Source: a virus
Virus record (IMG/VR): IMGVR_UViG_3300015371_000013
Location: 1-64,000 of that record
Reading direction: 5' to 3' (one strand)
Length of the DNA stretch: 64,000 bases
Below the pieces are notes generated by a model. That model did not search any database, was not told the origin of the DNA, and saw only the letters and a program-made list of their open reading frames with translations. The translations under genes were made by a program, and so were the position numbers. Below, piece by piece: positions 242-34,169 of the stretch. How positions within the stretch are numbered: the stretch's first letter is position 1; every line of letters begins with the position of its first letter.

Positions 242-544
242 CTACCTTTGACTTTGTTTAAGTAATGAAACTTCTCCTTCTTTAACTTTACGCAAAACAC
301 CAAGAACATTCTCTTTAACAATCTCGTCTATAGCTTCTTGGATGACTTGAAGTTGATCACCTTCAGGTAGATCGTCGGAGGTACGTGCTATCCTGGCTAG
401 GAGCCCAGGGGTATGGTACCCAGCAGATTGATCCCAAGCAAACCATTCATCCCACTGCGTCCATGGGTCGTATGGATTGTCTACTGTTGTCAGCATGTAC
501 TCAGGTGGATCAGGTAAGTCATGTGTGGTGTCGGTATCTGCCAC
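242..544 (-). CDS. Conserved phage protein next to RNA polymerase-like gene
   Basis: 100 residues, GTG start at 544 behind GGAGG. The central block with LTTVDNPYDPWTQWDEW and GYHTPGLLARIAR resembles a small conserved phage protein that I recall as a neighbour of DFDGD-type polymerase genes; that recollection is not verified here. The C-terminus is helical and charged. No catalytic motif is visible. Its place directly after the polymerase gene suggests co-expression and perhaps a partner role, which is inference. Confidence 0.75.
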   Translation of the reverse strand: MADTDTTHDLPDPPEYMLTTVDNPYDPWTQWDEWFAWDQSAGYHTPGLLARIARTSDDLPEGDQLQVIQEAIDEIVKENVLGVLRKVKEGEVSLLKQSQR

Positions 545-560: not shown

Positions 561-3440
561 TCACTCAACACCTGACTTCAAGGTGGACATGGGAATGCCT
601 AGCGAACTTGAGATCTCAGCGTATGTAAAGCCTGATGACAACATCTGCTTAGCTCTAGCTGTTACAGCATCAGTCATCACAGGCCTCTCCCTAGGTGTGG
701 CTCTCCTACGAATGGCCTCTACATCAGTATACTTAAGGATGCTCTCCATCATCTCCTTAGAGATAGCTCCAGCTTGAATAGCATCCCATTGACGATCAGT
801 TAGACCTATACGATTCTTCTTTCCTCCTGCTCCAGTACGAAGTCGAGCTTCTTTAATCGCACTGTCTCTTACCTTCTTGAGCTCATCCTTCTCCATGTTA
901 GGATTAGCACTTCTTCTCTGTGCCACCATACGTCGGGCTACAGCCTGAGCCTGGCGTTCTAGAGGAGCATTCCTCTCAGCTACTCGAACAGCTGACTTTA
1001 GTTCTTCTACCTCTTTACTGTACACCTTCTTTGCCGACTTGGACATAGGGGTAAGCTTTACCCTTACCGCCTCTCTACGTGCCTCATTAGCCATAGCCTT
1101 AAGGCGATTAGAATGATCAGCGTAGTACTGTTCCTGTATGGTACCTCTACCCTTAGAGACTAGGCTATAAGCATTAGTTGTCTCAGCCAATCTCTCAGAC
1201 TTAAACCTAGCAGGCTCATCAGTTTTAACGTACCGCTTCTTACCCGTCTTAGGATCTACCTCAGCGACACGCTTACGTTCCCCAGTATCGACGTAAACCT
1301 TTCTACCTGTCTTTACATCGATGGTCCCTACTGAAAGCCGCTTTACTCCTGGCCCTGCCGGAGCATCCTTACGTTTAACCGGGTACGTCTCAGCCCCAGC
1401 TCTGGTAATCAGTGTAGCTGCACCACCAGGTAGACCGGTCTTAGGATTAACTCCTTGATACTTTCTCTTTAGTTCCAGAATTCCGTGATGTCTCTCGGAT
1501 GCCTTGTAGTCTAGATTATGTTTCTCAGAATCAATGACCACCATCGAATGACGTACAGCACGAGACAACTCTTCTCGAGTAGCACCCCTGAGAGTCATGT
1601 CAGAGATAAGGTTTGTAACCTTACCCATCTGCAAACCCTTTTGTTGTGGGGTAATAGAAGGGGTACCATCAGGATACTTCTTAGTTTTAGGTCCCAGAGG
1701 CACCTTGTATGACTGAGGATCAAACCCCTTCAAATTCTCCAAAGGCCGAGTAGACTCGATCTTACCCCTAGGATTCGGAATGACCACCACATGGTCGCCA
1801 TCGAAATCCGCACCCGACAAACGCTCTGCCACCTTGGGATGAATGGCTACGGCATCCGGAGCTCTTCCTCCTTTTCCGATACCGAAAAGCTTCTTAGCTT
1901 CTCGCGATCGATTGTTAACCGTCAACTGTGGAATCTCAAAGGTTCCCGCATGAGGAAACCGAATCAGAGCAACTCTCTCACCATCATGAAACGTAGGGGC
2001 AAAGATCTCGTGTGGTTTTACATGGTTAGAAGGAAGAAGGACTTTTGTTGCTTGCCGATCCATACTAGCTGCCGCAAGATGTACAGCAGCCGAATCAGTT
2101 TCGTCAGAGAAGGTTTCTAGAAGCTTTCTCTTAATGAGAGGATTAGTCAACGATTTGATTTCGTCGAATTCTTCTCTTCTTCGATCATGGGTAAAATCAA
2201 GCTGAGACTTGATCAACGCAGGAGACTGCTTAGACAACATCTGACTAGAGATCCGATTCGTCCAAGTATCCCAGTCACCCTCTTCAGTGAGAAGATTCAT
2301 CACTGATTTAGGTTTACCATCCTTACCCAGAATCTGTCCACCTTCTTTGATGACAGACCCGAAGGGAAGAGTCTTATCAACTTCTCCAGTTTCCTTATCC
2401 TTCTTGAGCGGCTTCATGGCGTCGAATTTGTTGCCCGTATTCGACTTATTGGTATTGAACTGAAGATCTATACCAGCAGGCAAATCGTCCTTATAGACAG
2501 CCATACCCTTCAAGAAGTGGGTGCCACCAACTGCAATTCGAACCTGAGCATAACGCGCCTTGCCAAGACTAACATCTTCCACACCCGGACGGACATAGAT
2601 AACGCCATCTGCATCAGCGCCACCATCTTCTTTGTATTTAACTCCTACTCGTTTGGGATCAATGTGAAGCGGGGGCTTAATCCCCATGTCTTGCCAGGTC
2701 TTACCACCATCCTCAGTTTTCTCAGCGATCAATCTAATGTTATCACGATTCGTCCAGGCTTGTTTCTGAGTAACCCCCGGCTTGACCAGCACCTTGTAGG
2801 TGGTCATCTCTCCGGTAGTAACTTGAGGAGCTTTGAAGGTATGGACACCATAACCCTCTTCCTTGAGCATAGAAAGAGCGGTATTGAATTTGTCCGGGCT
2901 GATACCAATTCGTGTATCGGGATTATCGCCAATAGGAAGATCGAGATGAACTTTTGATCCAACGTCAATGATATCCTTCTCTGCAACTTGCCGCTTAAGC
3001 ATATTCGCAGTTTGTTGAAGTTCATTCAGTCGTTCAAGGCGTCCAGGCTCAAGAAGTGAACGAACCGTAGATTCATTAATCTTCTTATCAGGAGACGACA
3101 TCTGATTAGCGATTGCCGTTGGGCCCATGCCTTTGTCGCGCAGACGCTGAGCTTCACGAATCTGATTCAAGGTTACCTCGGTAGAGGCCCGAGATGTCAT
3201 TGCTCGAATGTCTGCCGAAGTCATCTGATATTTCTTGATGACATTACCATCTTTATCCACAGGAGAATACGCCTTGGCGATCTCTGCTTCGGTCATCCCA
3301 TCGACCTTTTTGTGCTGCTCAACGATGTCTAGAAATGTCTTTGAGCGCTGAAGAGGATTCTGTCCCAAACCCCAGGGGTAACGACCCGATTTTCGGAGTA
3401 TTCCGTAGTGACTCAAATAGGTTTCTTCGTCCAAACGCAC
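561..3440 (-). CDS. YonO-like single-chain RNA polymerase
   Basis: 959 residues. Residues 545-549 are DFDGD, the metal-binding aspartate motif of the double-psi beta-barrel in multisubunit RNA polymerases and in single-chain relatives such as YonO of phage SPbeta and crAss-like phage enzymes. The lead-in, with FPHAGTFEIPQ and GADFDGDHVVVIPN, fits that fold. The length is close to YonO (about 900) and far below crAss-phage enzymes. Helix-turn-helix-like segments lie near residues 95-130 and at the extreme C-terminus (TYAEISSSLGIPMSTLK). GTG start at 3440 behind GGAGG; the upstream stop overlaps it as TAGTG. It probably transcribes a phage gene class from its own promoters. A DNA-binding protein without polymerase activity cannot be excluded. 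Confidence 0.78.
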   Translation of the reverse strand: MRLDEETYLSHYGILRKSGRYPWGLGQNPLQRSKTFLDIVEQHKKVDGMTEAEIAKAYSPVDKDGNVIKKYQMTSADIRAMTSRASTEVTLNQIREAQRLRDKGMGPTAIANQMSSPDKKINESTVRSLLEPGRLERLNELQQTANMLKRQVAEKDIIDVGSKVHLDLPIGDNPDTRIGISPDKFNTALSMLKEEGYGVHTFKAPQVTTGEMTTYKVLVKPGVTQKQAWTNRDNIRLIAEKTEDGGKTWQDMGIKPPLHIDPKRVGVKYKEDGGADADGVIYVRPGVEDVSLGKARYAQVRIAVGGTHFLKGMAVYKDDLPAGIDLQFNTNKSNTGNKFDAMKPLKKDKETGEVDKTLPFGSVIKEGGQILGKDGKPKSVMNLLTEEGDWDTWTNRISSQMLSKQSPALIKSQLDFTHDRRREEFDEIKSLTNPLIKRKLLETFSDETDSAAVHLAAASMDRQATKVLLPSNHVKPHEIFAPTFHDGERVALIRFPHAGTFEIPQLTVNNRSREAKKLFGIGKGGRAPDAVAIHPKVAERLSGADFDGDHVVVIPNPRGKIESTRPLENLKGFDPQSYKVPLGPKTKKYPDGTPSITPQQKGLQMGKVTNLISDMTLRGATREELSRAVRHSMVVIDSEKHNLDYKASERHHGILELKRKYQGVNPKTGLPGGAATLITRAGAETYPVKRKDAPAGPGVKRLSVGTIDVKTGRKVYVDTGERKRVAEVDPKTGKKRYVKTDEPARFKSERLAETTNAYSLVSKGRGTIQEQYYADHSNRLKAMANEARREAVRVKLTPMSKSAKKVYSKEVEELKSAVRVAERNAPLERQAQAVARRMVAQRRSANPNMEKDELKKVRDSAIKEARLRTGAGGKKNRIGLTDRQWDAIQAGAISKEMMESILKYTDVEAIRRRATPRERPVMTDAVTARAKQMLSSGFTYAEISSSLGIPMSTLKSGVE

Positions 3441-4000
3441 TACGGCACCTCCTCTCTGAGTCGATTGAGAATTCTATCGAAGTCCACAATTTTGTCCATA
3501 ATTCCTCTTATAAAATGTGGATCAGCATCATACAACAGTACTCTGCTGTCCTTGTACAAGCGAAGCTCGATGCCTCGCAGAGAAAACGGATCTATCTCGT
3601 ATTCGAGACAGAAGAGTGCAGCGTAAACTTCCAACTGATGCTCGGAAACACGTGTGACACCGGTTTTGAGATCGCTGATGCGAAGAAGTCTATACCGGTA
3701 AGCGATAGCGTCAACTGTGCCGAAAGAGTTCGGTGAGTAGAAGAGGACGACCTCGGGGGACATCTTGTACTGAATACACTGGTTGATGTACAATCCGACC
3801 GTAGTCGTTTCGTCATCTTGAACGATCCCTTCTTCGATACAGATAGCAGCGTAACGATGATGCTCCATACCCTCCAGGGCTGCTCTAAGCGCTTTGTATC
3901 GAAATCTTAGCTTCTCCTCGTCGTAGTTTATCCAGTGGTAAGAACTAGGACTGAGGAAGGCATGCTGCCCCTCGAGATGCGAATGCTTCTTGAAGCGCAG
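3440..4000 (-). CDS. Cas4/RecB-like PD-(D/E)XK exonuclease, probable CTG start
   Basis: 186 residues if started at CTG 3998-4000, which has a perfect AGGAGG six bases upstream. The first ATG (at 3868) would remove the segment AFLSPSSYHWINY, a typical N-terminal signature of phage RecB/Cas4-like nucleases. Downstream, GTVDAIAYRY, SDLKTG and HQLEVYAAL match the D, DxK and QL(E)xY motifs of this fold. Expected role: 5' end resection in recombination. It overlaps the preceding nuclease gene by 56 bases. No ATG, GTG or TTG exists between the upstream in-frame stop and the LSPSS motif, so the CTG start is strongly implied. Confidence 0.78.
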   Translation of the reverse strand: MRFKKHSHLEGQHAFLSPSSYHWINYDEEKLRFRYKALRAALEGMEHHRYAAICIEEGIVQDDETTTVGLYINQCIQYKMSPEVVLFYSPNSFGTVDAIAYRYRLLRISDLKTGVTRVSEHQLEVYAALFCLEYEIDPFSLRGIELRLYKDSRVLLYDADPHFIRGIMDKIVDFDRILNRLREEVP

Positions 4001-4262
4001 TGATTACCTCCTCTTCATTCTCTGGATAGATAAACGCAGCGAAAGACATGTTGTTCATCTGCTGGACATAAAAAGCTTGATTAGGTCGTTCGGCCGAATT
4101 TGCCGAAGCTTTGACCTCAAGCATAGCCCAACATGGACCATAGAACAGAGTAAGATCGAGGATTCCCTGCACATAGTTCGGATCGTTTTTAAGGACTTCG
4201 CAGCCCGGGAATGTGCGCTTTAACTTACGAATGAGTTGACTTTGATACGCCGATTCAGTCAT
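3945..4262 (-). CDS. VRR-NUC-type endonuclease
   Basis: 105 residues. Motifs ESAYQSQLIRKLK, NDPNYVQGILDLTLFY and AMLEVKAS give the E, D and ExK residues of a small PD-(D/E)XK nuclease of the VRR-NUC type, often a Holliday-junction or branched-DNA nuclease in phages. I chose the ATG at 4262 because it overlaps the stop of the upstream 27-codon gene as ATGA; an in-frame ATG at 4292 has no ribosome site. Next in the operon are the Cas4-like nuclease and the RNA polymerase-like gene. Confidence 0.8.
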   Translation of the reverse strand: MTESAYQSQLIRKLKRTFPGCEVLKNDPNYVQGILDLTLFYGPCWAMLEVKASANSAERPNQAFYVQQMNNMSFAAFIYPENEEEVITALQEAFASRGAACLPQS

Positions 4263-4342
4263 GGATCCGGATCCTCGTTTCTGAAGATCCATACCGGAAA
4301 AGTGAGATGAAGAACCAGGTACTCAATCAGTCTTTTTACCAC
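4259..4342 (-). CDS. 27-residue peptide coupled to nuclease gene
   Basis: GTG start at 4342 with AAAGGGG seven bases upstream; stop TGA overlaps the next ATG. The peptide begins with a short hydrophobic stretch (LIEYLVLHLTFPVWIF) and ends acidic. It may be a membrane micropeptide, or a leader peptide that couples translation to the nuclease gene. No family recognised. Confidence 0.5.
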   Translation of the reverse strand: MVKRLIEYLVLHLTFPVWIFRNEDPDP

Positions 4343-4359: not shown

Positions 4360-4440
4360 GCGAAAAAAGAGAAACCAATTTCGGATATTGTATCCCTCTT
4401 CTATCATATGCTGCGATTTACACGCGTTCCAGTATCTGAA
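4360..4440 (-). promoter_or_regulatory. Leader with CAGATACTGGAA site and T-tract
   Basis: An AT-rich stretch between the HNH gene and the nuclease operon. Reading leftward it holds CAGATACTGGAA (4427-4438), a possible -10 TATGAT, a small GGATA/TATCC hairpin, and TCTCTTTTTT just before the ribosome site. The same 12-mer recurs in the origin-like region and at 37.58 kb, so a shared binding protein is likely. Probably the promoter and attenuating leader of the left operon. Confidence 0.45.
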
Positions 4441-4466: not shown

Positions 4467-5027
4467 TCAACGCATTTCTACCAGTTCAAAGTACTGATAA
4501 GTAGGCCATGCTGGGGTTCGATTGAGAACTGACAACACCACTTCTCGTTCCAACAGTCCGTAACGACAAGCGGCTGACAAAGAATTTGGAAACTTCTCGC
4601 CATCGCCTATCGAACGAATAGGTACCTTGAGTGGATTGTTGTAGCGATCGCCATGAAACTGACGTTTATAAAGAATAGCATACCAACGAGGACGCCACAT
4701 AAGATTGTCTACATGACAATTCTTGGGATCACCGTCCAACTGGATAGGTGTATCAAATACGTCGGAAGGCGGAGGAAGAAAAGCTCGAGCTACCAAGCGT
4801 GGTAGAGACCGAATACACTGTTGCCAATCTCGCATAAGTCCGACGTAGGGTACTCCATACTGATTGATTCTCGGAATCAACAAACGCCCGGTTGAATTTC
4901 TCGATACTTGCCCCAGCGCGTTTACGCTGTATCCGGGAAAGCCTTCTACAGGAACCCAACCATCATCGCTCTTTCTGGTGGCGAACTCGACGTCTTGCGA
5001 GGTTTCTTCAACCCACTGCTTAGTCAT
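4467..5027 (-). CDS. NUMOD4/HNH-family protein, HNH core degenerate
   Basis: 186 residues. WVPVEGFPGYSVNALGQVSR is a NUMOD4 module, followed by RSLPRLVARAFLPPP and TPIQLDGDPKNCHVDNLMW, the HNH_3-like region. The usual first catalytic histidine (H before xDGD) is a glutamine here, so cleavage activity is doubtful. Such proteins often persist in actinophages as free-standing homing endonucleases or DNA-binding relics. It overlaps the upstream 62-codon gene by 8 bases. Confidence 0.75.
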   Translation of the reverse strand: MTKQWVEETSQDVEFATRKSDDGWVPVEGFPGYSVNALGQVSRNSTGRLLIPRINQYGVPYVGLMRDWQQCIRSLPRLVARAFLPPPSDVFDTPIQLDGDPKNCHVDNLMWRPRWYAILYKRQFHGDRYNNPLKVPIRSIGDGEKFPNSLSAACRYGLLEREVVLSVLNRTPAWPTYQYFELVEMR

Positions 5028-8986: not shown

Positions 8987-9014
8987 ACTTATGTTTCCTT
9001 TCGGTAGGATTTTC

Positions 9015-9037
9015 ATTATATGCCCTGTTTATGACGC
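9015..9037 (-). promoter_or_regulatory. Cassette promoter 1
   Basis: CGCG at 9034-9037, 14 bases, TATAAT at 9015-9020. The T-tract of the preceding terminator runs into the CGCG element. Drives the 80-residue membrane protein gene. Confidence 0.75.
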
Positions 9038-9064
9038 GAAAAACGAAAGTCTCAGAATGAGACT
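9038..9064 (-). terminator. Cassette terminator
   Basis: AGTCTCA-TTC-TGAGACT hairpin followed by TTTCGTTTTT, directly abutting cassette promoter 1. Confidence 0.75.
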
Positions 9065-9333: not shown

Positions 9334-9359
9334 GGTCCTCCTTGGGATAGTAGGTTTTC

Positions 9360-9383
9360 GTTATAGGAGGAGAAATAACCGCG
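9360..9383 (-). promoter_or_regulatory. Cassette promoter 2
   Basis: CGCG at 9380-9383, 14 bases, TATAAC at 9360-9365. It lies right after the stop of the DUF3310 gene with no terminator between. Confidence 0.7.
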
Positions 9384-9389
9384 AACGAT

Positions 9390-12494: not shown

Positions 12495-12620
12495 GGAATT
12501 ACAACCCCTGACCAAGTTGATAGCAACGGGTCGACGGCCGGAGTGGCTCGGCCGGGCCCTTTGGCTCTCCCCGTCGCTCCTCTATCTGCTGCGCAGACGG
12601 CCACTAACCGGAGTTTAGAC

Positions 12621-12983
12621 CTACCGTCTCAACATCGAGACGACTTCAGTTCTTTGCCGCTGCGACAATCCCCCGATGGTTTTGAAAGGGGAAATACGGC
12701 ATTGCTGCAGGACTTTGTTGACCTTGATCCGCCCGTATTTGGGGCAAGCCATCATCGCATCAAAGAGCTTCATGGACTCGACCCACTCCGGCGGTTCGAG
12801 GAGAATATCGTGGATCGACTTACGTCGGGACTTCAGATCACGCTTCAGATTGGCTCTCAGAGAGCGGATGCGATTGGCCTCATTCAAGGCTGCCCGGCGT
12901 TGGATCAAAGATCGATCGGGTATCTTTCTTTCTACCTGTTCGGGTTTCCTTTGTTTCTGGGATTTATCCTGGGTGATCGTCAT
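12621..12983 (-). CDS. Actinobacterial-type integration host factor (mIHF-like)
   Basis: 120 residues. RRAALNEANRIRSLRANLKRDL and a C-terminal helix-two-turn-helix region (GRIKVNKVLQQCRISPFKTIGGLSQRQRTEVVSMLRR) follow the mIHF pattern of actinobacteria, a DNA-bending nucleoid protein unrelated in fold to HU/IHF. A phage copy probably assists replication, packaging or recombination. Located next to the SSB-like gene and downstream of the polymerase in the same transcription direction. Confidence 0.82.
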   Translation of the reverse strand: MTITQDKSQKQRKPEQVERKIPDRSLIQRRAALNEANRIRSLRANLKRDLKSRRKSIHDILLEPPEWVESMKLFDAMMACPKYGRIKVNKVLQQCRISPFKTIGGLSQRQRTEVVSMLRR

Positions 12984-12987
12984 CTAC

Positions 12988-13317
12988 TTAGGCTGCCCTT
13001 TCAGTCCTCTCGGGGTCTTCGGATGTTTCCTGGGGCTGTACCTCATCGAATGAGTCGTGGAAGGCCTTGTTGGTGTAGACCTTGTATCCCCGCTCGGTAT
13101 AGAGCAGCCAATCTCCGACAAATGCCTTCGTCTGGCGGGGGTTCTTGGGGTTGTGGACCCGGACCCGAATGAACTTCTTTGTACCCTTTCCCGGTACCTC
13201 GTCTTCTTGCACCTCGCCTTGGCACCAGTCCACCACCTCGTCGAAATTGGCGTTGGTGATTCTTACCGCATCGACGTAGAGGGGCTTCCTGATGAACTTG
13301 GTTGTGGTAACACGCAT
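12988..13317 (-). CDS. Conserved phage hypothetical protein
   Basis: 109 residues from the ATG at 13317 (an alternative ATG at 13341 overlaps an ATTGTA/TACAAT inverted repeat that may be a promoter). TTTKFIRKPLYVDAVRIT and TKAFVGDWLLYTERGY resemble the short beta-rich phage proteins also present at 14285-15090 (KYRKKP...EATQW). Role unknown. Confidence 0.7.
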   Translation of the reverse strand: MRVTTTKFIRKPLYVDAVRITNANFDEVVDWCQGEVQEDEVPGKGTKKFIRVRVHNPKNPRQTKAFVGDWLLYTERGYKVYTNKAFHDSFDEVQPQETSEDPERTERAA

Positions 13318-13398
13318 AGGTACGACTCGGTGTCCTTCCATTGTATAGCGACTTTACAATGCCCGACAGTGGACTACCTTCGTTGTACTCTCCTTATC

Positions 13399-13602
13399 CT
13401 ACTGAGGATCTTGCCTGCGATACTTCTTCTTGATCTTCTCTTGTCGCTTTTCTTCAGCGCGTTCCATATACTCTTTGCGCACGCGACGAAATTTAACTTC
13501 GTCGGGGTTTGCCATAGCATGGGTATGCCCCAAGTAGTAACCATAGGCAAATATGCTGGTCATCACTGCCCCCTTACGAAGAAGTATCAGGGTTTTCCTC
13601 AC
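13399..13602 (-). CDS. Small membrane-anchored protein
   Basis: 67 residues, GTG start overlapping the SSB-like gene stop as GTGA. Short hydrophobic N-terminal stretch (AVMTSIFAYGYYLGHT), then a highly charged K/R/E helix. Function unknown. Confidence 0.65.
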   Translation of the reverse strand: MRKTLILLRKGAVMTSIFAYGYYLGHTHAMANPDEVKFRRVRKEYMERAEEKRQEKIKKKYRRQDPQ

Positions 13603-14060
13603 TGCTGATCCATTTCGGCGTACTTACGTTCGAGAGCGTCCTCCTCAATGGTCACGTACATGGACTGGACGTAGGCCGTAATCCCGCTACGACCACCTTT
13701 CTCCCAAGGATAAGGCCGAACGATGAGGTCGACATTGACAATATCAGCCCAATCGAGGGTCTCCACCGTGTCCTCGGTGAGCGTGGTCTTACCCCGATCG
13801 GTGACCAAAGTGATCTTCGGAGGGCGACCTACGTCGTAGCGAACCTTGACCGGCAGCCAAGGGGTGGGGGTCTCTTCCTCATCCCGAGGGTCGAGAACCT
13901 TGACATTCCAACCGTCAGCGGCCATAGCCTCGGCAATATCCTCCGGAAGCACGACTCCGAAGTTCTTGGCTCCCTCCTGGTTGAAGGGGCCTCCTCTTCC
14001 GGTGAAATTACGGAAGATAAGACGAACACCTTCCATCACCACCGAATCATTGGCGGGCAT
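13599..14060 (-). CDS. Single-stranded DNA-binding protein-like
   Basis: 153 residues. VMEGVRLIFRNFTGRGG, KNFGVVLPEDIAEAMAADGW, VKVRYDVGRPPKITLVT and an acidic tail (DALERKYAEMD) match a family widely annotated as phage ssDNA-binding protein with an OB-type fold. The acidic C-terminus fits SSB partner recruitment. Lies two kilobases downstream of the polymerase. Confidence 0.75.
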   Translation of the reverse strand: MPANDSVVMEGVRLIFRNFTGRGGPFNQEGAKNFGVVLPEDIAEAMAADGWNVKVLDPRDEEETPTPWLPVKVRYDVGRPPKITLVTDRGKTTLTEDTVETLDWADIVNVDLIVRPYPWEKGGRSGITAYVQSMYVTIEEDALERKYAEMDQQ

Positions 14061-14078
14061 TATACTCTCCTCTCACCA

Positions 14079-14288
14079 TCACTTTGCCTGTAGTTGTACA
14101 AGCATAGAATATGCCTGCACCTTGGCCAATAGCAGAGGAATCATCACCCAGTTGCCATTGGTATCCCGAAATTTTTCAGGAGTGGTGCCACTTCTCTTGG
14201 CCATCTCCTCTACTTCTTTGATCTGAACGTCGATCTGTCTCAACATCCGGATCGTGTCTCGGCGCAGAATATCGTCATTGATGATCAT
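14079..14288 (-). CDS. Small helical protein
   Basis: 69 residues, ATGA overlap with the upstream gene. Helical, with heptad-like spacing in the first half (DTIRMLRQIDVQIKEVEEMA). No family recognised. Confidence 0.6.
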   Translation of the reverse strand: MIINDDILRRDTIRMLRQIDVQIKEVEEMAKRSGTTPEKFRDTNGNWVMIPLLLAKVQAYSMLVQLQAK

Positions 14289-14653
14289 GTCTCTACCTTG
14301 GGTGGGGGATGAGCTACTGGTTCATAAGGCTCATACTGGGCTTCAAAATCGGCCGCGCTGAGCCGGTAATACCTTCCTTTCTGATCGGTGACAATATAGT
14401 CTCCAGGACAGACGATCTCTTCCCCGTTCACTCCCTCCAACAAGCCATGCTTCTGCATGATGTTGCCGCAGTCAGGACAGAATCGTCCTCCGGGGATGTT
14501 GAGCGATCGAAAATATAGAACCACCTTACCCTCGGTTAGACTCGGGGAGCCCTCAGCGCGCTTAACTGGTTGCGTGTCGTCCAGAGGGTGATCACCGTTC
14601 TTAAACCACTGGGTGGCCTCAGTGAGTACTGGCTTTTTACGATACTTAGTCAT
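14285..14653 (-). CDS. Phage zinc-ribbon protein, copy B
   Basis: 122 residues. KYRKKPVLTEATQWFKNGDHP, one CPDCG knuckle, NGEEIVCPGDYIVTD and a C-terminal strand. It is the second of two adjacent, clearly homologous genes; only the middle and tail lengths differ. Family is common in actinophages but has no assigned role. Confidence 0.75.
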   Translation of the reverse strand: MTKYRKKPVLTEATQWFKNGDHPLDDTQPVKRAEGSPSLTEGKVVLYFRSLNIPGGRFCPDCGNIMQKHGLLEGVNGEEIVCPGDYIVTDQKGRYYRLSAADFEAQYEPYEPVAHPPPKVET

Positions 14654-15090
14654 GGCTGTGCATGTTGACGATATCGGCGTATCAGACGCTTCTCGACACT
14701 CGAAAGCGGTTTCTCACCGGGACGAGGTGGAGGAGCATAGATTTCGTATTTAGATTCAAATTCTCCCCTACTGAGTCGGTAATAAAGCCCGTTTCGATCG
14801 GTGACAATATAGTCTCCGGGGCAGATGATCTCTTCCCCGTTGACCCCGTCCAAGAAGCCGTGATTTTTCATGAGATTGCCACACTCAGGACAATATCGAT
14901 TCCCCGCGGTATTGAGCGCGTCCATCGACTCCATCGCATCCAGCGAGCGGAAATGTTGCACCACCTTTCCCTCGCTTAACTTTGGGGGTCCTCCCAAATG
15001 CTCTACGAGCCTTGACTCATCTTGGGGATGATCTCCGTTTTTAAACCATTGAGTGGCCTCGGTCAACGCGGTCTTCTTGCGATACTTCAC
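14650..15090 (-). CDS. Phage zinc-ribbon protein, copy A
   Basis: 146 residues from GTG at 15090 (GGAGG three bases upstream, GTGA overlap). Same order as copy B: KYRKKTALTEATQWFKNGDHP, CPECG, NGEEIICPGDYIVTD, plus an extra basic C-terminal tail (VEKRLIRRYRQH). Tandem duplication with divergence. Confidence 0.75.
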   Translation of the reverse strand: MKYRKKTALTEATQWFKNGDHPQDESRLVEHLGGPPKLSEGKVVQHFRSLDAMESMDALNTAGNRYCPECGNLMKNHGFLDGVNGEEIICPGDYIVTDRNGLYYRLSRGEFESKYEIYAPPPRPGEKPLSSVEKRLIRRYRQHAQP

Positions 15091-15341
15091 TCTCCTCCTC
15101 TCCCCAAAGCATGTCCTACGGCCAGACCTTGCAGCCAACCTGTCGAGTAGACCACGGTTTTACTGGTTTCCTGATCCAATCTCTCTCTGTGAGCGTAGGC
15201 ATTGGCAAAGGCGTAGTTCACCAGCTTCTCTGAAGGTCCCAGACCGAGTTCGTCGAGCATTCCCCACCCGATGGGGTTTTTCTGCTTCGCTGCCTCTACT
15301 CGATCAAGAGCGGCGTTGATTTCGTCCTCGCTATAGGGCAT
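15087..15341 (-). CDS. Small hypothetical protein
   Basis: 84 residues, helical N-terminus and a Gly-rich C-terminus (GWLQGLAVGHALGRGGE). Start and stop overlap both neighbours. Function unknown. Confidence 0.65.
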   Translation of the reverse strand: MPYSEDEINAALDRVEAAKQKNPIGWGMLDELGLGPSEKLVNYAFANAYAHRERLDQETSKTVVYSTGWLQGLAVGHALGRGGE

Positions 15342-15688
15342 TAAACGCTTTCATCTTTCTCGCGATAGAGAATCGGCTGATATGACGGATCGATAGCCAA
15401 TCCGTGGTTTTTCGCTTCCCGGATCAGATCCTCTACCTCATACATCTTGCTGTCCGGCGTAGCCCCCAACCAGGCCACGATTTGATCGTCCTTGGGAAGC
15501 ACTAGATTATGAACCTGCAGATAGAAACTCTGAAGCGGCTGATCCCACCCGAACACCCACTTCATGGTTGCTTTCCGATTTACGACAACATGCCTCGACA
15601 CTGAGTCCTTTCTTCTCTTAACTTGGAGTACCGGATTCGACTTCGCCTCCGGATCGATGAGAATATGAATGTTGGTGATACCCATCAT
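15341..15688 (-). CDS. Hypothetical protein following the polymerase
   Basis: 115 residues; the ATG overlaps the polymerase stop as ATGA, so it is translationally coupled to it. Beta-rich N-terminal half, helical centre (EVEDLIREAKNHGL). A polymerase-associated role is possible by context only. Confidence 0.65.
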   Translation of the reverse strand: MMGITNIHILIDPEAKSNPVLQVKRRKDSVSRHVVVNRKATMKWVFGWDQPLQSFYLQVHNLVLPKDDQIVAWLGATPDSKMYEVEDLIREAKNHGLAIDPSYQPILYREKDESV

Positions 15689-18600
15689 GACACGAACTTT
15701 CTAAAGGAACCAAATCCTTCGATAGCTGTGACAGCAGCATCTTTGAGCTTCTCGAAATATGACATGTCGATCTGCAAATCGTCTCCGGCTTCGATAGCCG
15801 CCTCAGATTCCATCCACAAATGACCCTTGGTTCCACTCACCGCGTAGTACTTGTCTTCAAAGCATCGATAGAGAGCTCCGCCGCCCTCTTTTACGGGTAC
15901 AAACAGCCCAGTCCTGCCCACATGCTTTAATTGTCCATCGGAGGCGCTTAGAACCCCGTTTACGGGCGTCTCAGAGCCTGTGTAGAGATACATGGTTCCC
16001 TTCTGGACGCTGCGCGCCTCGCAATAATCGTCGAAGGTTGTTCCTTCTTTTGAAAATAGGGTCTTGAACACGTAGGGATGCTGGAATTGAGCTCCCACTG
16101 CCTCCCAGTTGTACTTCGGGTATCCCTCTTCCCAGGGGACGGTCTGAATCCCGGCAATATAAACCGCATCGTTGACCAGACAGAAGCGATCGACAGTTTC
16201 CTCATGCTCGAATTCGTACCCATAAAGTGAGCCGAAGGTTTTCACCGCGCCGATGACATCAAGGTTGGCGTTCGGGATTTTCACCGAGTCGGTCTTGATA
16301 TGGATGACCTGATAGCCCTCGTCTTGGAGAAACTGCTTTAAGTCGATCATGAACAGCGCGCCACGCTTGGCTACGATGTTGTCTTTGTTGCGAACATCTC
16401 GGAATGGATTGTCGAACTTGGCAGACGTGAGACCATACACAATATTGAGAGCGATACGCAAGGCGTAGGCCAAGTCGGTGCCATGGCGTCCTGCCGTATC
16501 GTCCTCGGCGCCTTCCAAGAATTTGGCGAGTCGTCCATCGAGAAGAAACCGAGCTTTCTCGTAGTCCTCTTGCTTGATCGCCACGCGCGCTTCGGTGAGC
16601 GCAGCGTAATTCTTGGTGTAAGGGCCAAATAAGTTTAGAATTTTGATGGTCGTAGGATGCATGCTGACCACATCCAACACTGCCACGTTCTCATAGATTC
16701 CGGGTTCGGCGTAGACGTAGCCTCCCTCTCCCGGTTCCTCTCCCTTGTAATAGCTCTTGCCGAGCTCGAACTTGTAACCAGGAAACTGCTCGGAGAGATC
16801 TGTGTAGACGAACTTTTTGTGAGCCGTCTTTACATCTTTGCCAAATATGATTCGAGCGGTATGATTCTGAGTGGTGTCATTGACCGTCAATCCGGACAGC
16901 TCAGCCAGAATCTGTCGGGCCAGATAATCACCCCTACGAGCCTCGAATACGGCTTCGGTGGCCTTTACGTCATTGACACAGTACTCCACTACTCTTCCCC
17001 AGTTCGTCTCGTCTACCGGTTTATCCCAGGGAAGGTCTAACTCCATGTGAAGAATGCCGAGATCGATCTCGAATTTCTTCAAGGATTTCTTCTCGGTGGA
17101 GAAGTCCCAAATATCAGCGTAGGAGAGATTGTAAGCCTGGGCGAAGGTGGCTGCGCGGTTTCCCTCGATGATCTTGACAGTCAGACGATACAACTCTTCG
17201 TTGCTGGCACCCATAGCCGCAGCGTAGAGAATATGATTGTCAAAGCGGCGATTGTAGAACCCCACCAATTTGAACTTGAACAGTTCTGCCACATCATGCG
17301 GCTTGGGGTTGATCATTCTTGCCACGTCGGGTGATCCCTGAAACTTCCAGCACACCACGAAGAGGTTAGGATATACCTCGACATCAAAAAAGACAAGACG
17401 ATCATCAGTCACTTCCACTGATCTCTCAGCGGTGAATCTTTCTTCCTTGCTCTCTTCCGTCTCTTCCGAGGCCCACTTCATGTCCTTGACGATTCGCAAA
17501 CAGGCGGCAGCTTGATTAGACGAGTTGTTGGCAAACGCCATGATCTTGCTACGTAGATCAGTCACATCATACTTCATGCCTGATTCGTAGGCATCATCGA
17601 GAATCTTCTTGATGAAATCTATTGACGGCTTGGTGCCGGGATGAATCTCCTTGCGGAGATTTCGATTAATAAGTTCTCGCAGTCCTTGTTCGCTTTGAAT
17701 CGTCTTGGCCTTAAGCATCGTTTCCTTTCTCTCCCGCAGCGGCAAGCCTGAACTGATCTTTGCCACTGGTACCCGATTACAACGGGACAACTTCCGTCTT
17801 AGAGAGGCATCGCCCGAGTAGGTCTTAACTTCGACTCCCTCAGCGAACACAGGAGACAGTTCCGACACATCTCCGGTGTAAATATAGTGCAGGTGGATTC
17901 CCGAACCAGAACGGCTGATCTCGGCATAAGTGGCAGGCCACTGAGAGGCCGCTTCCAGATTTCGCTCTAGAGCCTTACGACCGTTTTGACCCTTGAGATC
18001 GAAATCGATCACCACGTGATTTTCCGGGATCTTTACGTAATGAATTTTACGCGTATCAATATCTGAGAGCTTGGTTTCCACATTGGCCCACCGTTTGGTA
18101 GGCATGCCCTCAGAATTGGCCAATTGCGCCGGGCAATCAGCGTAGAAATCATCAAGCAGGGACACCTTCTCTTCTAGGACCAGAGAAAATACGGTTCGAT
18201 CGTCGGTCGGGGCCTTGAACTTGTCAGCCGTAAACCCTCGGTACACACTGCGAACCAGCTCGCCATCGATTTCGACCCGGTCCTTGAACTCCTCAAAGTA
18301 ATTTCGCAGTTCTTCACGCATCTTGTACTGCGGAAGAGGCCGGTTGATCCCGCTTTCCTCACAGTAGGTCTTATACAGAAAATATGCTTGCTTTAAGGTA
18401 GTGTAATCCTGGCTCTTGAAGACGTCGTAATGGGCTTCGATGAAGTTAAAGAAGACGTCGGTCTGCAACATCATCTCCATCGGGCGATAGGTATTGTAGT
18501 AATTCTTACCCATGGACAAATAAACAGAAAGACAATGGTGAGCGATAGCGCCCAGCTCAAAGCCGATCTGGGTCATGAGCGTCTGATAACGCTTGGCCCC

Positions 18601-19509
18601 GAACTTGATACCCGTAGGATGCACATCGATCAAGCGGCGGATAATGCCCGACTTGGCGTCAGAAATTCTCACCGGCTGGTTCGAGCCCAGGAACAACATG
18701 GCATCGATCCGGGAAGAATATGCGGGCTTGTACTTCTCGTTCATCGTCATCTGCTCATGAGCGATGATCGAATTAAGCCGAGCGTTTTCCTCGATGCGGC
18801 TCAGATCGCCATCGTGCTGAATCGCCACCAGCGGATTGGACTTGAACACTTCGGTGGCAAAGGCCGAATTGGAAGACCCCAGGGCTTTACCATCAAAGCT
18901 CGTGCAATATCCCTCGAACAGCATGTTGATGATGTTCATCACCGTCGACTTCCCGGTGCCAGGAGGCCCATAGAAGACGATGAACTTCTGGATCTTCTTG
19001 GAATCACCAGCAATAATCGAACCGATCGCCCATTCGATCTTGGCTCGTTCATCTGGCGAATAAAGCGTGGACATGAGTTCATCCCACGCGGAAATATCCC
19101 CCTCGCCGATGGCATAGGGAAGCATCTTGCTGACATAATCTGATTTCTTTATCTCCGCATTGGCGAAGGTCAGATTACGATCCAGCGGTTTACTGTTATC
19201 GGAAATATGGGCCATGAACTTTCGAAATTGAGCCCAGGAGTTGGAATGGAACGATCGCATGAATTTTACGAGATAACGCTGCCCGGTCTCCCGCTGCAGT
19301 TTTTCCTTCTCCTGGGCCAGAACTTCATCGACGAGCCGTTGCACGTCGTATTCGTCTCTCGACCACAGATTCTTTTCGGGATCCCAGATGGCATAGAATC
19401 GTCCACCCTGGACCATCAGATCCTCGGAGCGCCCAACCACAAAGTCAGGATATAGCTCCAACTGCTTGTCCTTTGCTTCCCTCGCAAGGATCTGAATGAA
19501 GTCCATCAC
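15685..19509 (-). CDS. Helicase-primase-DNA polymerase fusion
   Basis: 1274 residues with three replication modules. 150-310: D5-type SF3 helicase with Walker A GPPGTGKS (181-188), a QHDGD Walker B-like strand (about 227-231) and sensor FLGSNQP. 450-600: archaeo-eukaryotic primase with IDFDLKG (501-507) and RSGSGIHLHYIY (533-544). 700-1274: family B polymerase with exonuclease FFDVEVYPN (707-715), FYNRRFDN, YCVND, then motif A VLDVVSMHPTTI (944-955), motif B ALRIALNIVYG (near 1016-1026) and motif C IKTDSV (1071-1076). All catalytic residues expected for exonuclease and polymerase are present. Usual primase-helicase order is reversed. I see no stop or frameshift between modules. It could prime, unwind and copy from one polypeptide. 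Confidence 0.88.
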   Translation of the reverse strand: MMDFIQILAREAKDKQLELYPDFVVGRSEDLMVQGGRFYAIWDPEKNLWSRDEYDVQRLVDEVLAQEKEKLQRETGQRYLVKFMRSFHSNSWAQFRKFMAHISDNSKPLDRNLTFANAEIKKSDYVSKMLPYAIGEGDISAWDELMSTLYSPDERAKIEWAIGSIIAGDSKKIQKFIVFYGPPGTGKSTVMNIINMLFEGYCTSFDGKALGSSNSAFATEVFKSNPLVAIQHDGDLSRIEENARLNSIIAHEQMTMNEKYKPAYSSRIDAMLFLGSNQPVRISDAKSGIIRRLIDVHPTGIKFGAKRYQTLMTQIGFELGAIAHHCLSVYLSMGKNYYNTYRPMEMMLQTDVFFNFIEAHYDVFKSQDYTTLKQAYFLYKTYCEESGINRPLPQYKMREELRNYFEEFKDRVEIDGELVRSVYRGFTADKFKAPTDDRTVFSLVLEEKVSLLDDFYADCPAQLANSEGMPTKRWANVETKLSDIDTRKIHYVKIPENHVVIDFDLKGQNGRKALERNLEAASQWPATYAEISRSGSGIHLHYIYTGDVSELSPVFAEGVEVKTYSGDASLRRKLSRCNRVPVAKISSGLPLRERKETMLKAKTIQSEQGLRELINRNLRKEIHPGTKPSIDFIKKILDDAYESGMKYDVTDLRSKIMAFANNSSNQAAACLRIVKDMKWASEETEESKEERFTAERSVEVTDDRLVFFDVEVYPNLFVVCWKFQGSPDVARMINPKPHDVAELFKFKLVGFYNRRFDNHILYAAAMGASNEELYRLTVKIIEGNRAATFAQAYNLSYADIWDFSTEKKSLKKFEIDLGILHMELDLPWDKPVDETNWGRVVEYCVNDVKATEAVFEARRGDYLARQILAELSGLTVNDTTQNHTARIIFGKDVKTAHKKFVYTDLSEQFPGYKFELGKSYYKGEEPGEGGYVYAEPGIYENVAVLDVVSMHPTTIKILNLFGPYTKNYAALTEARVAIKQEDYEKARFLLDGRLAKFLEGAEDDTAGRHGTDLAYALRIALNIVYGLTSAKFDNPFRDVRNKDNIVAKRGALFMIDLKQFLQDEGYQVIHIKTDSVKIPNANLDVIGAVKTFGSLYGYEFEHEETVDRFCLVNDAVYIAGIQTVPWEEGYPKYNWEAVGAQFQHPYVFKTLFSKEGTTFDDYCEARSVQKGTMYLYTGSETPVNGVLSASDGQLKHVGRTGLFVPVKEGGGALYRCFEDKYYAVSGTKGHLWMESEAAIEAGDDLQIDMSYFEKLKDAAVTAIEGFGSFRKFVS

Positions 19510-19524
19510 TCTCCTTTCTGTTTA

Positions 19525-19665
19525 TTACTCGTCGTCGGGTTTCAGTGGCTCATAACTGAATCCGCGGTTCTCTTCGCGATGGATTCCCCACCACGCTATG
19601 AGAAAGCAGACTACGGCAATCAATAACACAGCCACTGCCGCGTATAACAAAGTGTCTTTACTCAT
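19525..19665 (-). CDS. 46-residue membrane protein
   Basis: ATG at 19665 overlaps the previous gene by 8 bases. One membrane helix (YAAVAVLLIAVVCFLIAWW) followed by a short charged tail. Sits directly in front of the polymerase. Function unknown. Confidence 0.65.
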   Translation of the reverse strand: MSKDTLLYAAVAVLLIAVVCFLIAWWGIHREENRGFSYEPLKPDDE

Positions 19666-19861
19666 GGACCTCCGGTACATCGTCGCTGTAATATCTAAAT
19701 CCCACTGTGGTTTCGGCGTGAGTACTTTCGGCTAGGTTACAGTGTTTGCACAACGACCACCATTCGCCCTTGGGCTCGAACGGATGATCGGTAGTAATAG
19801 AAGGAGTTTGATCGTGTAAGACTTCCTTAGGTCTTGCTTTTCGTGAATCTTCAATTGCCAT
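19658..19861 (-). CDS. Small zinc-binding-type protein
   Basis: 67 residues from the ATG at 19861 (GGAG seven bases upstream). WWSLCKHCNLAESTHAE carries C, C and H that could bind one zinc ion. Overlaps both neighbours. Function unknown. Confidence 0.65.
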   Translation of the reverse strand: MAIEDSRKARPKEVLHDQTPSITTDHPFEPKGEWWSLCKHCNLAESTHAETTVGFRYYSDDVPEVHE

Positions 19862-20408
19862 GTCGATGCTCCGGGTGAAGTTCTTCAATGAATGAATTCA
19901 TCTGATACCAGAGTTCGATACGAGTCTGATCGTCATCTGGCCAGGCCAAGGGGAAAAATCCACCTGTGCCGTCAGGCAAATATGTTCTCTCCATGGCAAC
20001 CTGCATGATTTCCCCGGCTTTACGCTGCTTGGGTCTGGTAAATGGGTCTGATAGTCGGTTTAGCTCCAGGTTGGTCAAGAGCTCCCATGCCCAACCCGAC
20101 GGTCGTCCTCCGGCGGCAAACCCCAATCGACGGGAAAGCCCGATCAGAACTTCCAGGAAAGACCCTGGACCCAGTTTCTCCATGTCACGATGACGAACCT
20201 GAAACTCGCGAGAAAATTCTGTCCGCAATTCCAGGCCGTCGGCAACTCGGTTGTCATCCAAGGGAACACTCCAAATAAATGGAGTATCAAACATGAAGTT
20301 GAGAAGTCCCCAATAGGTTTTTCCCTGACTTCCAGACTTATCATTGAGTTGGGGTTCCAACCAATGAAGGTATTCTTCTCTTACCTCCTCAATCGTCCTC
20401 CTGCTCAT
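19851..20408 (-). CDS. Conserved phage protein of unknown function
   Basis: 185 residues. KTYWGLLNFMFDTPFIW, VPLDDNRVADGLELR and WAWELLTNLELNRLSDPF resemble a recurrent actinophage family that I know only as hypothetical. Aromatic-rich and probably globular. Upstream gene is a membrane protein. Confidence 0.7.
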   Translation of the reverse strand: MSRRTIEEVREEYLHWLEPQLNDKSGSQGKTYWGLLNFMFDTPFIWSVPLDDNRVADGLELRTEFSREFQVRHRDMEKLGPGSFLEVLIGLSRRLGFAAGGRPSGWAWELLTNLELNRLSDPFTRPKQRKAGEIMQVAMERTYLPDGTGGFFPLAWPDDDQTRIELWYQMNSFIEELHPEHRHGN

Positions 20409-21282
20409 CTCTTTCCTTCATTCGCATCCTTTCCAGATTTCGGTAAGCTGGCGAATCGTGAGTGAATCCGTGAACCTCCTCGGCGAATTTGTTCGGAGAT
20501 CTGATCACCTCATAGATGATCTCCACCTTGTCGTTACGAACATAGACGATGACAGGATCTCCTGAGCCATGACCGAAACGGAGCAGGTTGCCTTCGCCTA
20601 TCAACTCAGCACGATCGGTGTGGCCGATGACCTCATCGCGATCATTGCAGAGAACATCATCGCCTTCGTAATAGGTCACCGTGACCATGTCATAGCCTTC
20701 AGAAGCGTCGTCATACTTCTCGTCGACATGAATGACGTAGGGAATCTCCGGGGACCGGCTCTTGCGTTCCTCATGCCAGTCCCACTCAAATTCCTCTTCG
20801 ATCCCATCCTGGACGAATATGTTCTGAACTTCTGTGCTTTTGATCTCTGGCTCAACCCGAGGCGGCTGATCAGAGGGGTCATCGCTTTCGACCACTCGAG
20901 TCGGGGGCGGAACCGCCATGGGAGGCGGGGTTTCCTTCTCAGTTGGAGAATATCCCCGCTCTTTGACGATCTCCCCGACCGGACGTTTGGCTTCCTTGGC
21001 CTCAAGCGCCCGCGCCTTCTCCTGATAGTGGCGCCGCATCTCAGAAATCTCGTCGTCGGAAATCTTGGAGTACTTTGTCTCCGCTCGCGAATATGCGAAC
21101 TTGTAAGCTACGAAGGCTCCCGTAGCCGCTCCTAGAAACCATCCTCCCACTGCGTAACTGATCTTGGCCCGATTGAGCGCTCGAATCGCCTGCTCGGCTA
21201 GTTCAGCCTGATCCGAGACTTCGCCCGCCACGTCAGCGGCAACGTTGATGACAGTCTCAGCGGCTTTATCCGCAGCACTCAT
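20389..21282 (-). CDS. Membrane-anchored protein with acidic C-terminal domain
   Basis: 297 residues. A membrane segment near 45-65 (VGGWFLGAATGAFVAYKFAY), a proline-rich linker near 115-150 (TPPPMAVPPPT), then a beta-rich acidic domain containing SGDPVIVYVRNDKVEIIYEV. Overlaps both neighbours. Probably forms a set with the two DUF6353-like proteins and the gene at 22594. Confidence 0.65.
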   Translation of the reverse strand: MSAADKAAETVINVAADVAGEVSDQAELAEQAIRALNRAKISYAVGGWFLGAATGAFVAYKFAYSRAETKYSKISDDEISEMRRHYQEKARALEAKEAKRPVGEIVKERGYSPTEKETPPPMAVPPPTRVVESDDPSDQPPRVEPEIKSTEVQNIFVQDGIEEEFEWDWHEERKSRSPEIPYVIHVDEKYDDASEGYDMVTVTYYEGDDVLCNDRDEVIGHTDRAELIGEGNLLRFGHGSGDPVIVYVRNDKVEIIYEVIRSPNKFAEEVHGFTHDSPAYRNLERMRMKERDEQEDD

Positions 21283-23467: not shown

Positions 23468-23495
23468 GGATTCCTCCTGGATAGGGTAGCTTTTC

Positions 23496-23519
23496 ATTAT
23501 AGGAGGGGTTTTTCCCGCG
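23496..23519 (-). promoter_or_regulatory. Cassette promoter 3
   Basis: CGCG 23516-23519, 14 bases, TATAAT 23496-23501. Drives the 53-residue membrane protein. Confidence 0.75.
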
Positions 23520-23532
23520 ATCTCACCCGGAC

Positions 23533-23633
23533 AAAAAAGAAAGCCTGTGCGAGAATGAACTCTAAGGTTACTCACAGGTGTCTATCGCATTATTTCTCCA
23601 AAGCCTTGGATCGGCGGGCAATAGCACTCTTTC
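23533..23633 (-). ncRNA. Gene-less RNA cassette D
   Basis: A promoter at 23634 is followed by about 100 bases with no gene, then TTTTTT. The 5' end GAAAG..GTGC can pair with the 3' end GCAC..CTTTC (23539-23550 with 23624-23633), and an alternative hairpin CCTGTGAG/CTCGCACAGG occupies the 3' half. A two-codon frame (ATG CGA TAG) with a GGAG site lies inside. Either a small RNA or the relic of a lost gene. Confidence 0.5.
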
Positions 23634-23657
23634 ATTAAAGGCTATGTTTTTCACGCG
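23634..23657 (-). promoter_or_regulatory. Cassette promoter 4
   Basis: CGCG 23654-23657, 14 bases, TTTAAT 23634-23639 (one mismatch in the -10). Drives RNA cassette D. Confidence 0.65.
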
Positions 23658-23665
23658 AATTACAC

Positions 23666-23988: not shown

Positions 23989-24019
23989 AGAATTACTCCT
24001 AGTTTGGGGTTTGGTTCTC

Positions 24020-24043
24020 ATTATAGGCGATGAAATATACGCG
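24020..24043 (-). promoter_or_regulatory. Cassette promoter 5
   Basis: CGCG 24040-24043, 14 bases, TATAAT 24020-24025. The CGCG overlaps the 3' arm of the structured RNA at 24041-24118. Confidence 0.75.
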
Positions 24044-24118
24044 AGCCACGCGCTAACCCGTCCCACTGCTCGCACTCTACTGGCGCCGCCACTGGAGATA
24101 AGCCGGTCTTTCGTAGAG
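24041..24118 (-). ncRNA. Structured RNA element, copy 1 of 2
   Basis: Leftward RNA with stem CTCTAC/GTAGAG (24113-24118 with 24075-24080) and, one base further on, stem GCGAGC/GCTCGC (24068-24073 with 24041-24046). Shares order, spacing and words with the element at 25056-25156, where the second stem keeps pairing through different bases. Located between the gene at 24126 and the promoter at 24020. No T-tract follows, so it is not a plain terminator. Confidence 0.5.
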
Positions 24119-28383: not shown

Positions 28384-28421
28384 AAAAGAAAAAGAGATTC
28401 CGAATCAACGGATCTCTCTTC
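28384..28421 (-). promoter_or_regulatory. Leader attenuator between promoter 6 and its gene
   Basis: AGAGATCCG/CGGAATCTCT hairpin at the very 5' end of the transcript followed by TTTTTCTTTT, upstream of the ribosome site. Transcription would have to read through it. Confidence 0.65.
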
Positions 28422-28445
28422 ATTATAGGGGATGTTTTTCCCGCG
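28422..28445 (-). promoter_or_regulatory. Cassette promoter 6
   Basis: CGCG 28442-28445, 14 bases, TATAAT 28422-28427. Begins right after the stop of the gene at 28451. Confidence 0.75.
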
Positions 28446-28450
28446 AATTT

Positions 28451-29584: not shown

Positions 29585-29664
29585 AAAAAAGAGAGAGAAG
29601 GGAATCTATCCAATTCAATGGCGTATTCCTTTGCAAGCCAACAGTCAGTTGGCTCTTCTCTCTC
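29585..29664 (-). ncRNA. Closed-stem leader RNA A
   Basis: GAGAGAGAAG/CTTCTCTCTC (29655-29664 with 29591-29600) pairs the transcript 5' end to the base just before TTTTTT (29585-29590). Inside are hairpins AGCCAAC/GTTGGCT (29636-29654) and GGAAT/ATTCC (29601-29629). Placed between promoter 7 and the ribosome site, so it is a natural attenuator. Confidence 0.65.
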
Positions 29665-29688
29665 ACTATACGGCGTGTTTTCCCCGCG
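29665..29688 (-). promoter_or_regulatory. Cassette promoter 7
   Basis: CGCG 29685-29688, 14 bases, TATAGT 29665-29670. Followed directly by RNA A. Confidence 0.75.
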
Positions 29689-29691
29689 TGA

Positions 29692-30314: not shown

Positions 30315-30338
30315 ATTATACCACGGGTTTTCTACGCG
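30315..30338 (-). promoter_or_regulatory. Cassette promoter 8
   Basis: CGCG 30335-30338, 14 bases, TATAAT 30315-30320. The stop codon of the gene at 30332 lies inside it. Confidence 0.75.
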
Positions 30339-30984: not shown

Positions 30985-31008
30985 ATTATAGGGGCGGTTT
31001 TTCACGCG
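30985..31008 (-). promoter_or_regulatory. Cassette promoter 9
   Basis: CGCG 31005-31008, 14 bases, TATAAT 30985-30990. Starts immediately after the stop of the gene at 31011. Confidence 0.75.
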
Positions 31009-31010
31009 AA

Positions 31011-34144: not shown

Positions 34145-34169
34145 GCAACACTCCTTTTGTAGTGGTTTC

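Follow-up and report, generated by a model that had tools for sequence, protein, structure and literature searches.

The window analysed here comprises the first 64,000 bases of the 80,501-base virus record IMGVR_UViG_3300015371_000013. The majority of its longer open reading frames are on the minus strand. The record runs right to left relative to related phages, and both of its ends look like the cos-proximal ends of these phages. A tRNA scan and an Rfam scan of the window found nothing. Near the left end, a frame of 959 codons occupies the minus strand of a region whose plus strand is full of stops; its GTG start at 3440 overlaps the end of the upstream gene. The features of this end, together with one gene from the structural region, are as follows:

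242-544, minus strand: small protein, last gene before cos (PHROG match, phrog_4303; small gene at the same place in relatives)
561-3440, minus strand: predicted single-chain two-barrel RNA polymerase (RNAP), 959 aa, GTG start (PHROG 4291, phage records, Foldseek)
570-692, minus strand: C-terminal helix-turn-helix (HTH) domain, Sigma70_r4-like, residues ~917-957 (Pfam/PHROG matches and model)
1794-1808, minus strand: predicted catalytic DFDGD, residues 545-549 (invariant in 26 homologs)
3051-3335, minus strand: N-terminal HTH-like helices, residues ~36-57 and ~99-130 (Pfam HTH matches across members; helices in model)
3363-3440, minus strand: N-terminal L.HYG..R.SGRYPWG motif, residues 1-26, proposed virion tag (pLDDT <50 at residues 1-33)
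3440-3868, minus strand: Cas4-like exonuclease (phrog_3953, E 2e-40; synteny)
3945-4292, minus strand: VRR-Nuc endonuclease (phrog_93, E 2.6e-12; synteny)
4386-4426, minus strand: candidate class 2 module promoter CGCGTGTAAATCGCAGCATATGATAGAAGAGGGATACAATA, divergent copy, upstream of VRR-Nuc/Cas4/RNAP (4 mismatches, ungapped scan)
4467-5027, minus strand: HNH endonuclease with NUMOD4 (Pfam/PHROG)
59181-60629, minus strand: structural-gene-region protein with related tag LAHHGVKGMRWGIQK at 60278 (PHROG and motif scan)

PHROG 4291 matches residues 4-957 of the 561-3440 product with 1112.6 bits. By tblastn, homologs were found in 250 phage records (hosts Arthrobacter 95, Gordonia 55, Streptomyces 54, Lactococcus 13, and others), all below 60% identity and 249 of them with at least 80% coverage; IMG/VR held 31 loci with identities of up to 94%. 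In relatives the gene is usually the last large gene before cos, and the records label it 'HTH protein', 'hypothetical' or 'RdRP'. Two of the IMG/VR homologs (G021 and G004) carry one in-frame stop each (TGA and TAG, respectively), which may reflect recoding, a pseudogene or a sequencing error. Twenty-six homologs with 42-70% identity to the window protein were aligned, and ADFDGD (residues 544-549) was invariant in all of them. K311 and K343 were likewise invariant and K332 nearly so; these are candidate basic residues of the first barrel. HTH_23 matched 25 and Sigma70_r4_2 24 of the 26 members. For the window RNAP itself the HTH profile match was the C-terminal one, and the helices of the AlphaFold model fit both ends. 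The name HTH DNA-binding protein, frequent in GenBank, and the entry 'structural protein' for orf75 of Lactococcus phage 1706 would suit a protein that binds DNA or belongs to the virion and is no longer active as a polymerase. However, all 26 homologs keep the DxDxD triad, along with over 100 further invariant positions, and we find such a loss hardly credible.

The AlphaFold model of the RNAP had a mean pLDDT of 78 and a pTM of 0.62, with residues 1-33 below 50. Searched against the PDB with Foldseek, the full model matched QDE-1 (E 1.7e-9, 985 columns), P74-26 gp62 (1.2e-6), RDR2 (1.8e-6) and Rpb1 (7e-4); a core-only model (residues 256-700) matched QDE-1 with E 2e-8 over 536 columns. In the core-only model the catalytic barrel, which was the one compared separately, agreed with the Pol IV largest subunit to 2.9-3.5 Å over about 110-120 columns. 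Global TM-scores were low (~0.3) because the AlphaFold model leaves it uncertain how the domains are arranged relative to each other. A PDB sequence search with the family profile gave HTH or chance matches only. Assignment as a single-chain two-barrel RNAP is well supported by the predicted fold; the product is very probably an RNAP, and it would be expected to synthesise RNA. A sequence-only reading of this DNA had proposed a single-chain RNAP of 959 residues in an actinophage, with DFDGD in a matching context, HTH-like ends and two nuclease neighbours. PHROG 4291, the homolog alignment and Foldseek bear this out, with the correction that the frame is on the minus strand. The structure prediction for a barrel pair that it had suggested as a check was run, and the alignments span the two-barrel QDE-1 in both the full and the core-only model, at the global TM of ~0.3 given above.

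The best fold matches, QDE-1 and RDR2, are cellular RNA-dependent RNA polymerases (RdRPs) whose alignments cover the two-barrel core, but they are eukaryotic RNA-silencing enzymes and not phage transcriptases. Taken at face value, these nearest solved folds and the PHROG and RefSeq labels would make the protein an RdRP that copies phage or host RNA. Yet the labels appear to be based on homology only. The cellular-type RdRP family PF05183 matched 21 of the 26 members and, with E 0.018, stayed under the Pfam cut-off for the window protein itself. A palm domain of the RNA-virus RdRP type was found neither as fold nor as family match; the sole RdRP match was PF05183, and the folds were two-barrel. 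Moreover, the superfamily includes YonO, which is strictly DNA-dependent in vitro, and the terminal HTH domains and the linked DNA promoters described below point to a DNA template. We consider an RdRP most unlikely.

YonO of SPbeta is a strict DNA-dependent RNAP in vitro and transcribes the SPbeta late genes as one operon; its promoter, and whether YonO alone recognizes it, were left open in 2017 (PMC5467207). When the sequence-only reading called the window protein YonO-like, this was right for the single chain with two barrels and wrong for membership in the YonO family. YonO itself is PHROG 8308 (1220 bits), which matched the window RNAP with E 0.013 and 14.9 bits (residues 460-614 against 472-618, the catalytic barrel), and an hhalign comparison of the window RNAP family with YonO gave no significant match. 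Both proteins are phage-encoded single chains with a DxDxD triad and a weak co-linear match at the catalytic barrel, but their sequence families differ; judged from these profiles, the window RNAP is a distant cousin of YonO outside YonO's sequence family. The non-virion RNAP of the Thermus phages P23-45 and P74-26 (gp64/gp62), which was not found in virions (PMC10770324), is also a single-chain two-barrel phage RNAP (Foldseek 1.2e-6 to 8f5m), although it is shorter (592 residues in the solved chain) and no sequence match to the window RNAP was found. P23-45 has in addition a two-barrel virion RNAP, gp96, which is delivered with the virion and transcribes pre-early genes (PMC10770324); unlike the window RNAP, a separate gene beside cos, gp96 is fused to the tape measure protein. 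The 1706 orf75, the ReqiPoco6 RNAP gene and Rima gp86 match PHROG 4291 over their full length and have in common with the window gene the right-end position beside a small gene and the N-terminal motif, although their records call them structural protein, RdRP or HTH protein.

The two nucleases next to the RNAP are the Cas4-like exonuclease and VRR-Nuc, names that were taken from synteny with relatives, and the HNH gene precedes both. The order HNH, VRR-Nuc, Cas4-like exonuclease, RNAP, small protein, right end is kept in Rima, Conley, Scap1, Secretariat, Pippin15, Kardashian and ReqiPoco6, and the ReqiPoco6 record marks a 3' cos overhang at the right end. Mudcat and Paella have no HNH gene directly before VRR-Nuc. 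This conserved nuclease synteny beside cos would fit a role outside gene expression, in which the RNAP helps the Cas4-like, VRR-Nuc and HNH proteins to replicate or recombine the DNA or to process cos, for instance as a supplier of primers. In Lactococcus 1706, however, five genes (orf70-74) separate the exonuclease from the RNAP, and the phages already encode a DNA primase/polymerase and a helicase, so that such a role seems very unlikely to us. Once the ends are joined, the lysis and structural genes would follow the nuclease-RNAP module, which may be co-transcribed with them across cos.

The intergenic DNA of the small-gene arrays contains a repeated element, CGC-N8-CA-N5-TATAATGA (class 1), in the form TCGCR-N7-CA-N5-TATAATGA. 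Allowing up to 2 mismatches, 22 copies were counted in the window, every one of them on the RNAP strand, compared with 0.34 expected from shuffles:

9013-9039, minus strand: candidate class 1 promoter copy, 0 mismatches
9358-9384, minus strand: candidate class 1 promoter copy, 2 mismatches
23494-23520, minus strand: candidate class 1 promoter copy, 1 mismatch
23632-23658, minus strand: candidate class 1 promoter copy, 1 mismatch
24018-24044, minus strand: candidate class 1 promoter copy, 0 mismatches
28420-28446, minus strand: candidate class 1 promoter copy, 0 mismatches
29663-29689, minus strand: candidate class 1 promoter copy, 2 mismatches
30313-30339, minus strand: candidate class 1 promoter copy, 1 mismatch
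30983-31009, minus strand: candidate class 1 promoter copy, 1 mismatch
34168-34194, minus strand: candidate class 1 promoter copy, 1 mismatch
34297-34323, minus strand: candidate class 1 promoter copy, 1 mismatch
34950-34976, minus strand: candidate class 1 promoter copy, 1 mismatch
35233-35259, minus strand: candidate class 1 promoter copy, 0 mismatches
35467-35493, minus strand: candidate class 1 promoter copy, 1 mismatch
35755-35781, minus strand: candidate class 1 promoter copy, 0 mismatches
35983-36009, minus strand: candidate class 1 promoter copy, 0 mismatches
36284-36310, minus strand: candidate class 1 promoter copy, 1 mismatch
36549-36575, minus strand: candidate class 1 promoter copy, 1 mismatch
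36870-36896, minus strand: candidate class 1 promoter copy, 0 mismatches
37211-37237, minus strand: candidate class 1 promoter copy, 1 mismatch
37529-37555, minus strand: candidate class 1 promoter copy, 2 mismatches
38069-38095, minus strand: candidate class 1 promoter copy, 0 mismatches

A weight-matrix scan of the structural region found no class 1 copies. In 64 copies pooled from five phages, neither CGC nor the C of CA varied, and conservation extended to about 10 bases past TATAAT; as the pool was selected with the pattern, conservation at the pattern positions is partly by construction, but conservation outside it (A at 28, C at 30) is not. No -35 hexamer is visible in the pooled copies: across the 20 bases preceding TCGC, conservation stays at 53% or less at every position. 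CGC stands 15 nt before TATAAT, compared with the sigma-70 -35 spacing of 16-18 nt. Possibly the host RNAP together with a phage factor reads class 1, since the TATAAT of many copies matches the host -10 box perfectly.

Class 1 copies were found in Rima, Conley, Kardashian, Secretariat, Scap1, Paella, Pippin15, Mudcat and ReqiPoco6. With the weight matrix made from the five phages, copies in the other RNAP phages scanned were on the RNAP strand only, shuffles gave none, and some RNAP loci (L004, L014) had none. The -10 part is TATAAT in most actinophage copies, CTTTAT in Faecalibacterium phage oengus, and degenerate in Kardashian and in the related contig L028; within the Kardashian copies GAGACCCCTA varies less than the -10 does, and L028 and oengus have kept CGC and CA despite the altered -10. 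Lactococcus 1706, whose copies were first detected with the actinophage matrix, has 10 copies of its own variant (0.01 expected), and oengus has 13 copies with CTTTATGRA in place of TATAATGA and without TATAAT (0.66 expected); both patterns were written after viewing these genomes, so that the two expectations overstate the surprise. Variants with the same spacing, some of them without TATAAT, occur in RNAP phages of Actinobacteria and Firmicutes.

The link between the element and the RNAP gene was examined in IMG/VR contigs with an exact TCGC-N8-CA-N5-TATAATGANA, of which 50 records were taken in the order returned among the matches listed. The RNAP was present in 31 of these 50 and in 24 of the 26 of at least 40 kb, again among the matches listed, the records not being independent of phylogeny. 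With the spacing increased by 3 it was present in 1 of 28 records (1 of 12 at 40 kb or more). Fisher's test gave P 1.4e-7 without a size cut (31/50 listed against 1/28) and P 7e-7 at 40 kb or more, a cut chosen after the first counts were known. The +3 control was added because a control with CA shifted by 2 was poor; there the RNAP was still found in 14 of 50 records (13 of 21 large ones), since the outer elements TCGC and TATAATGA keep their distance. For the gut-variant pattern CTTTATGGA, 17 of 33 selected records formally had the RNAP and 13 were convincing; the other 4 matches were discounted as short, C-terminal HTH only and of E 2e-4 to 6e-4.

CGC-N8-CA-N5-TATAATGA is the best candidate for the promoter of this RNAP, and on present sequence evidence it is likely that the window RNAP recognizes it. 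The sequence-only reading had expected the enzyme to use promoters unlike CGCG-N14-TATAAT. This is probably wrong, as the extended element tracks the RNAP gene across phages and host phyla. The main alternative still standing is co-inheritance: the RNAP, and promoters that are read by the host, would simply have been passed on together within a single phage lineage.

Between HNH and VRR-Nuc, Rima, Kardashian, ReqiPoco6, Paella and others have a second element (class 2), ACA-N5-TATAATAGAAGGGATAGAATA or a variant of it. The exact ATAGAAGGGATAGAATA was found at 28 sites in IMG/VR: 20 of them precede an RNAP gene on the same strand by 888-978 bp, 2 are on records that end before the RNAP gene and 6 look unrelated. 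CGC, CA and their spacing are common to both classes. A division of labour is conceivable, in which class 1 is read by the host RNAP, alone or helped by a phage activator, and the phage RNAP serves only the class 2 module and the late genes across cos. This would resemble YonO with its single late operon in SPbeta (PMC5467207), and it would account for class 2 preceding the RNAP module, for TATAAT in most actinophage class 1 copies and for a structural region without class 1 copies. But the two classes agree in CGC, CA and spacing; oengus and L028 have kept CGC and CA with a CTTTAT and a degenerate -10, respectively; and no -35 is conserved in the pooled actinophage copies. We regard a purely late enzyme as rather unlikely.

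The RNAP region had also been described as the only part of the window without AATAT. This holds for the plus strand, where the first copy is at 5340, and fails for the minus strand, with copies at 3001, 3228 and 4385. The gap is not trivial, because at the window-wide rate about 13 plus-strand copies are expected before 5340 and none was observed. ATATT on the RNAP strand (AATAT on the plus strand of the window) was examined in the whole window and L033, Conley (L041/L042), Rima (L039/L040), Secretariat (L046) and ReqiPoco6 (L034/L038). It is strongly strand-biased: 187:31 in the phage's own sequence, 146:2 in Conley, 116:3 in Rima and 96:0 in the right half of Secretariat. The bias was not seen in 1706, the right half of Mudcat and L004. 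Copies avoid close spacing (in the right half of Conley 1 gap below 50 bp vs 23.5 expected). The RNAP gene is without ATATT on its coding strand in the window, Conley, Rima, ReqiPoco6 and Scap1, and the preceding genes have it. ATATT as an RNAP promoter was dropped, being about equally dense within and between genes and absent or unbiased in other RNAP phages.

The RNAP N-terminus reads L.HYG..R.SGRYPWGSG, and a tag L.HYG.KGMKWG is found on proteins encoded between the lysis, terminase and portal genes: one in the window (59181-60629), three in L033 (1926-4298), four each in Rima and Conley and seven in ReqiPoco6. PHROGs with this tag include one named virion structural protein. HYG...SGRYPWGSG and the KGMKWG tag are similar only, with a 4-residue insertion. 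A literature search for the KGMKWG tag found no paper. In Lactococcus 1706 the tag occurs in orf7 only and the related form in orf75 only; both were deposited as 'structural protein', which for orf75 is a database product name, and RefSeq now labels orf75 RdRP. Mass spectrometry was reportedly used in the 1706 work. The N-terminal tag and the 1706 labels are suggestive of packaging in the virion, to which we give about even chances. Two further observations concern the tag. The three copies in L033, of the form HYG/HFG.KGM[KR]WG, are in one 791-aa protein (1926-4298, minus strand), which may be a multi-domain virion cargo protein, and L028 has about nine stretches starting H[HY]GI[KL]GM[KR]WG.RR downstream of its RNAP gene (12610-20621).

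Our preferred interpretation is that the single-chain two-barrel DNA-dependent RNAP is the phage's own transcriptase. It would recognize the bipartite CGC-N8-CA-N5-TATAATGA, for which it probably uses the HTH domains at its own ends. The ~22 class 1 copies would drive the small genes and the replication genes, and class 2, with the same architecture and ending ATAGAAGGGATAGAATA, would drive the nuclease-RNAP module that reads towards cos. With the ends joined, transcription of the module could carry on into the structural genes. Since the N-terminal peptide of the RNAP resembles the tag on the terminase/portal-region proteins, a portion of the enzyme is probably packaged, and its injection would set early transcription going. 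For this explanation as a whole, with both promoter classes, read-through and packaging, we estimate a probability of about 0.6. A tentative extension, which we hold less probable than not, is that a phage lineage of Actinobacteria and Firmicutes has a separate, tag-targeted RNAP packaged in the virion that reads sigma-free promoters of the CGC-N8-CA-N5-TATAATG type via HTH domains and serves early and late genes, with the HYG.KGMKWG-type tag directing a set of cargo proteins to the head.

The RNAP assignment would correct the annotation in about 250 genomes, and the RNAP with its promoter classes would help to define early and late genes in the phages that carry it. Promoter choice by YonO-type enzymes is the question that the 2017 study left open (PMC5467207). 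A large family in cultivated phages with two candidate promoter classes of fixed geometry makes sigma-free recognition by a minimal two-barrel RNAP testable.
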